Origin: Chitinophaga pinensis
Lineage (GTDB): Bacteria; Bacteroidota; Bacteroidia; M30B66
Assembly (NCBI GenBank): GCA_945883545.1
Contig: CAMCXT010000012.1
Span: forward strand, 1-64,000
Direction: 5' to 3'
DNA: 64,000 bases
Positions 28,186 through 29,317 of the stretch are shown here, piece by piece. The notes beneath the pieces are model-generated. The model ran no database searches, was not told the DNA's origin, and was given only the letters and a program-made list of their open reading frames with translations. Position numbers and translations under genes: made by a program. How positions within the stretch are numbered: position 1 is the stretch's first letter; each line of letters opens with the position of its first letter.

Positions 28186-29100
28186 TTAAGCTGATTTTAC
28201 ATCCCAAAGCATCACACTTTGATCGTCGCTCACAGATGCCAATAAATCGGTTGAAGGGCACCAATAAATCGCATTCACTGAGTTTTTGTGGCCTTCGTTT
28301 TTTGTTGCATCAAATCTGTGAAGGACTTCGAAGCTTCCAGCACTCCAAATTTTAATCGTCTTGTCTCTGCTCGCAGTGGCCATCAGAGTTCCTGAAGCGT
28401 TGAATGCAATGCTATAAATGGCGTAATTGTGTGCTGGGATATTGTGTATCAATTCATAATCGGTTGCTGATCTCACTTGAAGATGTGCATCCTTTGTTCC
28501 GCTGATGAGATAGAGGCTGTCTGGTGAAAAAGCTACAGCATTTACAGCATCTTCATGCCCGTCGATGGTTTTAATTATTTCGAAATTTTCGGTGTTTAGA
28601 ATCCTGATTTTTTGATCGCTACATGCAAGTGCAAGTTTGCTTTCATCGGGCGAAAGTGCCATTTTACGGACTTTCAGGCTAGAGATTTTCAGTTCATGTT
28701 TACAATGAAAGTTCTCAGTGCTCCAAACTGTGAGGTTGCCATCAGCGCCACTGGCTAAAAACTCGTTTTTCGAAGGTATTTCTAGCAAATCGAAAACGCC
28801 AATGGTGTGAGCCAATAAATATTTCACTTCGGCTTTTTGAGCAAGATCAACTACATGAATGCCACCTTGGTTGTTGCCAATGAGCAGAATTGGTTCGTTT
28901 TGAAGTGCCAATAAACTGTAAACCACACCTGCCGAATGGGCAATTACGCGGGGCGGTTTGATGCCATGAAGATCCCATTCAACAATGTTTTTATCGCTAC
29001 CTGCTGTAATGATTGTATCGCGCAAAGTTCCTTTGGAAACGGTATACACAGCTGCTTGATGACCTGTTAACGCATGCACTCGGTGGGCAGAAATCTTCAT
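28186..29100 (-). CDS. WD40 repeat protein
   Basis: This 304-residue protein starts at MKISAHRVHALTGHQAAVY and consists almost wholly of seven WD40 repeats. Examples are DTIITAGSDKNIVEWDL, DAVNAVAFSPDSLYLISGTKDAHLQV and NSVNAIYWCPSTDLLASVSDDQSVMLWDV. That is one beta-propeller, likely a protein-binding scaffold; the partner is unknown. No signal peptide is present. The ORF-track extension to 29205 runs into a GC-rich non-coding block and is rejected. A canonical promoter (TTTG, 18 bases, TACCTTTG) ends 4 bases before the ATG. Confidence 0.88.
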   Translation of the reverse strand: MKISAHRVHALTGHQAAVYTVSKGTLRDTIITAGSDKNIVEWDLHGIKPPRVIAHSAGVVYSLLALQNEPILLIGNNQGGIHVVDLAQKAEVKYLLAHTIGVFDLLEIPSKNEFLASGADGNLTVWSTENFHCKHELKISSLKVRKMALSPDESKLALACSDQKIRILNTENFEIIKTIDGHEDAVNAVAFSPDSLYLISGTKDAHLQVRSATDYELIHNIPAHNYAIYSIAFNASGTLMATASRDKTIKIWSAGSFEVLHRFDATKNEGHKNSVNAIYWCPSTDLLASVSDDQSVMLWDVKSA

Positions 29101-29104
29101 CCAC

Positions 29105-29134
29105 CAAAGGTAAGCTGCTGACCCGTAACTCAAA
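29105..29134 (-). promoter_or_regulatory. promoter of the WD40 gene
   Basis: On the minus strand: -33 TTTG (29131-29134), 18-base spacer, -7 TACCTTTG (29105-29112), then GTGG and the ATG. Both boxes match the Bacteroidota consensus, making this the best-supported promoter in the window. Confidence 0.65.
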
Positions 29135-29144
29135 CATCCCATTT

Positions 29145-29226
29145 GATCGGAATGCCGCGGCAGGGGGCGAGGCAAACAGCGCACGGAGGGCCTGTAGCCG
29201 AGCACCCGACCCTTGTGGTGCCGCCC
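29145..29226. other. GC-rich non-coding block (possible dispersed repeat or structured RNA)
   Basis: About 82 bases between the WD40 gene and htpG are strikingly GC-rich in an AT-rich neighbourhood and carry no supported ORF. Self-complementary parts include TGCCGC (plus strand near 29153) with GCGGCA near the other end, GCACC/GGTGC and GGCCTGTAGCC. My recollection, unverified, is that similar blocks recur in other Bacteroidota genomes. It may be a dispersed repeat or a structured RNA. Confidence 0.4.
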
Positions 29227-29281
29227 AAATTTTAGAACGACAGATGTTAGGTCATTTTGTCAGCCAAATTCTTGCGGCATA

Positions 29282-29295
29282 GGCTTTGAAAAGCC
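29282..29295 (+). promoter_or_regulatory. small hairpin in the htpG upstream region
   Basis: GGCTT-TGAA-AAGCC lies 22 bases upstream of the htpG ATG. TAGGCTTTG (29280-29288) overlaps it and resembles a -7 box with one extra spacer base, preceded by TTTTG at 20 bases. Either a promoter or a leader hairpin. Confidence 0.25.
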
Positions 29296-29317
29296 CGGTC
29301 GACTAACATTTTAACCT

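Follow-up and report, generated by a model that had tools for sequence, protein, structure and literature searches.

Flavo-1 (RF01705) has been reported to be a candidate structured RNA without a cis-regulatory role (PMC2864571). The family is classed as sRNA in Rfam, has no known function and appears in the list of the bacterial sRNA families with the highest abundance (PMC9029176). In F. psychrophilum, its matches are located indistinctly in sense or antisense, and many of them fall outside transcribed regions, while some coincide with 5' transcribed regions (PMC9723704). A second kind of folded repeat is represented by the REP/BIME sequences associated with RAYT (TnpA_REP) transposases, which are intergenic, fold-conserved hairpins arranged in inverted pairs. 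The genes of the Bacteroidetes subclass 2.6 are reportedly flanked by atypical secondary structures, copies of which are found elsewhere in the genome, and no REPs are listed for the subclass 1.2 Y1 transposases (PMC6006769).

The window, i.e., the whole stretch of 64,000 nucleotides of Chitinophaga pinensis that was analysed, contains a GC-rich block between a WD40 gene, located on the minus strand, and htpG (Table 1). The block is better delimited at 29148-29229 than at 29145-29226, as set in the first-pass annotation; it has a GC content of 71% in a setting of about 40%, and the GC peak per 80 bases reaches 0.66 (29140-29219), most of the surrounding sequence being between 0.35 and 0.50. 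The complementary arms that had been noticed in it are indeed present: GCGGCA faces TGCCGC, and GCACC/GGTGC also lie within the element. The folding of the window copy alone is unremarkable (z of -0.76 on the plus strand and +0.72 on the minus strand), so that the arms, in this one sequence, could be a matter of chance and the proof of a structure comes from its relatives. The two open reading frames crossing the block (29013-29282 plus and 28186-29205 minus) had been considered spurious, and these extensions look so also from the comparison with relatives, in which the start codon of the WD40 protein is the ATG that corresponds to position 29100; on this basis, the true gap between the two genes is the one given in the first row of Table 1.

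Table 1. Features of the WD40-htpG intergenic region and of the element embedded in it (positions in the window).
Feature	Positions	Strand	Remarks
WD40-htpG intergenic region with inserted element	29101..29317	.	empty in G002, G003, G006, G007
Whole element, Flavo-1-like dispersed hairpin repeat	29148..29229	+	full match to model R1, 87.5 bits
P1, 5' strand, GCGGCA	29157..29162	+	covarying outer stem
P2 basal part, 5' strand, tandem G·A/A·G pairs, GGGGGCGAGGC	29163..29173	+	covariation alignments
P2 middle part, 5' strand, CAG	29177..29179	+	covariation alignments
Conserved bulged C	29180..29180	+	always C where the copy has a letter there
P2 variable tip	29181..29191	+	2-67 nt among copies, median 19
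P2 middle part, 3' strand, CTG	29192..29194	+	covariation alignments
P2 basal part, 3' strand, GCCGAGCACCC	29197..29207	+	covariation alignments
P3, short hairpin, CCCTTGTGG, weak in the window copy	29210..29218	+	covariation alignments
P1, 3' strand, TGCCGC	29219..29224	+	covariation alignments
Conserved 3' end, CCAAA	29225..29229	+	copy-to-copy similarity ends here

Searching the own genome at the DNA level returned a single copy of the block, a result that would be misleading if it were taken as the mark of a unique sequence, since the copies share their fold rather than their sequence. The weak matches retrieved in relatives have in common the pattern GGGCGAGGCAAATAGC...GCTATAGCCGAGCAC.CGACCC....GGGG..CGCCCAAA, and the structure model R1 was built from them (seven aligned copies). 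This model disclosed 10 copies in the own genome, 14 in G004, 18 in G001 and 97 in G007, and copies in 47 out of 295 genomes at the level of the class Bacteroidia; the first-pass annotation had advanced a dispersed repeat as one option and mentioned similar sequences in other Bacteroidota, and both suggestions are supported. The search for carriage by plasmids, phages and viruses did not reveal any real copy. The element is a chromosomal dispersed repeat of about 82 nt, widespread in Bacteroidia. Five of the copies of the own genome are old and have orthologues in G004, so that the movement of the element may not be current.

The alignments of the copies support a nested three-way junction, formed by an outer stem (P1), a long stem (P2) and a short third one (P3). 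In P2 there are tandem G·A pairs, a bulged C that is conserved, and a tip that varies among copies. In the alignment of seven copies, where the long tips of two of them were shortened by hand, 12 of the 24 pairs changed on both sides and 95.6% of the cells were paired, compared with 80.7% in shuffles and 29-43% with slid partners. In a second alignment of 96 copies (A3), which was fitted to the model and therefore leans towards it, 23/24 pairs covary and 95.2% of the cells are paired, the slid (30-48%) and shuffled controls remaining far below these values; the cells with double changes (555) are far more numerous than the one-sided changes. A non-canonical G·A pair is present in all the 96 copies, and an A·G/G·A swap can be observed at columns 21/144 of the same alignment. 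P1 and P3 are also paired (98.8% and 89.3%, respectively) in a distinct set of 50 copies belonging to other families. The structure anticipated from the window sequence therefore exists, and it is kept by compensating changes while most of the sequence of the element drifts. A double pseudoknot similar to that of HDV was rejected, the covariation favouring the nested junction. The idea that P3 might bear the signature of a GNA triloop (as DNA) or of a UNCG loop (as RNA) was dropped, the signature being present in just 22/96 copies.

The window copy does not match the RF01705 covariance model at E values up to 10, and thus falls short of the curated score of Flavo-1; the link with this family goes through intermediates. 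A copy of the own genome (L135) reaches 38.9 bits with RF01705, whose gathering score is 42, and the copies that R1 retrieves from other families are RF01705 matches, six of them above gathering (L121, L113, L109, L321, L316, and L328). Since the same model retrieves both, the block is very probably a divergent relative, or subtype, of Flavo-1 missed by Rfam. The two share the plan of P2 (G·A internal loops, a variable tip, and flanks of the AGC..GCC type), which reads GGGCGAGGCAAAYAGC in the element and GAUUGAAGCGGAAAUCC in Flavo-1, as well as the phylum, the intergenic location and the presence in multiple copies, and the intermediates score with both models. The Rfam model corresponds to P2 only; P1 and P3 are outside of it, and yet they are kept in the Flavo-1 matches. 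A subtype of this kind would widen the family and add to it an outer stem and a third stem.

As for the locus itself, G000 and G004 carry the element at htpG, and the four other relatives compared lack it (Table 1). Once the length of the element is subtracted, the spacer measures 135 and 131 nt in the filled sites, which is close to the 100-127 nt of the empty ones. Since the four relatives devoid of the element still keep a promoter-like box of htpG, the comparison indicates an insertion of about 82 nt between the promoter regions of WD40 and htpG. The filled and empty sites were also compared for a target-site duplication, the flanks being too diverged to read one. The promoter-like box (29254-29292) consists of two TGNCA-like repeats followed by GGCA-N5-TTTGAAA, spaced like the -24/-12 elements of a sigma-54 promoter, and is kept in six genomes of the family. 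It had been proposed that the block might regulate htpG, and a riboswitch, a thermometer or an insulator acting in cis could be envisaged, given that the element lies 88 nt upstream of the gene and that this copy is kept in two species. However, the box retained by the four relatives without the element is located between the element and htpG, and the other copies stand at unrelated places, beside unrelated genes; the proposal finds no support and such a role is highly unlikely.

According to gene calls based on a simple ORF rule, the overlap with predicted genes exceeds 30 nt in only six of the 96 copies, the other 90 staying at or below this value, and the 3' end of the element lies at a median distance of 36 nt from the nearest gene, the 5' end at 140 nt (p 4e-8, 96 copies). 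The window copy is an exception, with 47 nt to the gene on the 5' side and 88 nt on the 3' side. All the 11 pairs of copies less than 2.5 kb apart in G007 and G001 are arranged tail-out (eight of these were checked), and the orientation of the genes flanking the 3' side is not constant (52 vs 36, p 0.11). In three other genomes, the limit of shared blocks coincides with the 3' end of the element; these boundaries may reflect rRNA and paralogue repeats, and little weight is given to them. Two of these blocks were discarded as shared cargo, since that of L349/L350 holds the apparent end of a gene for a gliding-motility-type C-terminal domain, and that of L347/L348 the apparent end of an rRNA operon. 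In the latter (G331; L347 1-500 and the end of L348), the element is located downstream of what seems to be the last part of a 5S rRNA gene, and the two operon flanks cease to be homologous at the 3' end of the element.

The kind of pairs that the fold tolerates bears on whether it acts as DNA or as RNA. G·U represents 1.9% of the standard pairs of the element (38/2021) and 7.1% of those of the tRNAs (p 8e-10), the yardstick being tRNAs alone, namely 31 fetched from the own genome as those in the fetched loci were too few. Rare G·U together with double changes is what would be expected if Watson-Crick pairing were selected, as in DNA, even though this does not represent a proof. The Rfam class of Flavo-1 suggests, on the contrary, a functional RNA, either an sRNA transcribed on its own or an RNA domain that forms part of transcripts, and this is consistent with the strongly conserved fold bearing RNA-like motifs (tandem G·A, bulged C) and with the Flavo-1 matches placed at 5' transcribed regions in F. 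psychrophilum. Against it stand, besides the rarity of G·U, the up to 97 copies per genome without a constant orientation to their neighbours, the many Flavo-1 matches outside transcripts, and the lack of promoter-like or terminator-like sites tied to the element, so that a functional RNA is rather unlikely. Intrinsic terminators, i.e., a GC hairpin followed by a T run, were searched for and none was found, the conserved tail being CCCAAA. DNA is favoured because G·U is rare, close copies are always tail-out and the 3' end hugs genes, and the covariation pattern and the genome positions are better accounted for by a mobile DNA hairpin than by either an RNA or a regulator of htpG.

We therefore consider it probable, albeit with some reserve, that the Flavo-1-like repeat inserted beside htpG is a REP-like mobile DNA hairpin. 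The fold would act as DNA, in the form of a single-stranded hairpin or of a cruciform, and might represent the recognition end for a putative enzyme supplied in trans, which would place copies of the element at intergenic sites, in a manner similar to that assumed for the spread of REP elements; the position adjoining htpG would then be incidental. Integron attC sites and the ends of IS200/IS605 elements are likewise folded DNA that is recognised through its structure. The likeness to the element (folded ends, extrahelical bases, variable tip) would concern only the way of working; neither arrays of copies nor a flanking Y1 transposase were seen for the element. What speaks against a mobile hairpin is that no enzyme has been linked to it, that five copies of the own genome are old, and that the Y1_Tnp genes of the family are unflanked by the element.

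The latter point also bears on the option, already raised in the first-pass annotation, of a REP/BIME sequence. As far as the organisation is concerned, the resemblance holds: the copies are intergenic, the close ones form inverted pairs in all 11 cases, and the fold is kept over the sequence, as in REPs with a RAYT. Membership does not follow, given that the element is longer (about 82 nt), has three stems, and is not adjoined by a RAYT here, and that the GTAG/GGAG foot with a palindrome of 20-40 nt is absent from the consensus of the 96 copies. A true REP moved by a RAYT, e.g., of the Bacteroidetes subclass 2.6, whose transposase has been lost from these genomes, would account for these habits and would recall the atypical structures mentioned above. 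Nonetheless, ten genomes of the family yielded 12 Y1_Tnp genes, not one of which is flanked by the element, those that were read look like subclass 1.2 and mostly have other palindromes nearby, and no transposase of subclass 2.6 was recognised in the genomes tested here. Moreover, G007 harbors 97 copies and one Y1_Tnp gene, while G001, G002, and G003 carry copies but no Y1_Tnp; a REP that lost its transposase is thus improbable.

A broader possibility, which we regard as doubtful but worth stating, is that the whole Flavo-1 family might not be RNA but the folded DNA end (with the 3' end outward) of a mobile system specific to Bacteroidota, whose own putative recombinase would act on single-stranded hairpins and move or duplicate the DNA on the 5' side. 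Mobile DNA becomes a concrete and testable alternative in view of the rare G·U, the tail-out arrangement of pairs and the existence of both filled and empty sites; if it were true, many of the annotated Bacteroidota "sRNAs" would be mislabelled and a structure-recognising enzyme would await discovery.

A few other observations concern the neighbourhood of the copies. In G007:C8 (L164 1264-2278), an ORF6N gene is bracketed by a tail-out pair of elements, and one copy of G002 adjoins an ORF6N gene; ORF6N was rejected as a mobilising partner, since G000, G003, and G004 have copies and lack ORF6N. The loci L176, L178, L183, L184, and L185 (and also L180 and L187) contain Y1 transposase genes of the Y..NQ..HH type, similar to subclass 1.2, which are flanked by repeated short palindromes such as AGGCCTAAAGGCC and GACGGTTTAAACCGTC. 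Lastly, the sequence TACCTTTG (window 29101-29115), a TAnnTTTG-type -7 box of Bacteroidota that is kept in some relatives, directly precedes the WD40 start codon, suggesting that the WD40 mRNA may be leaderless.
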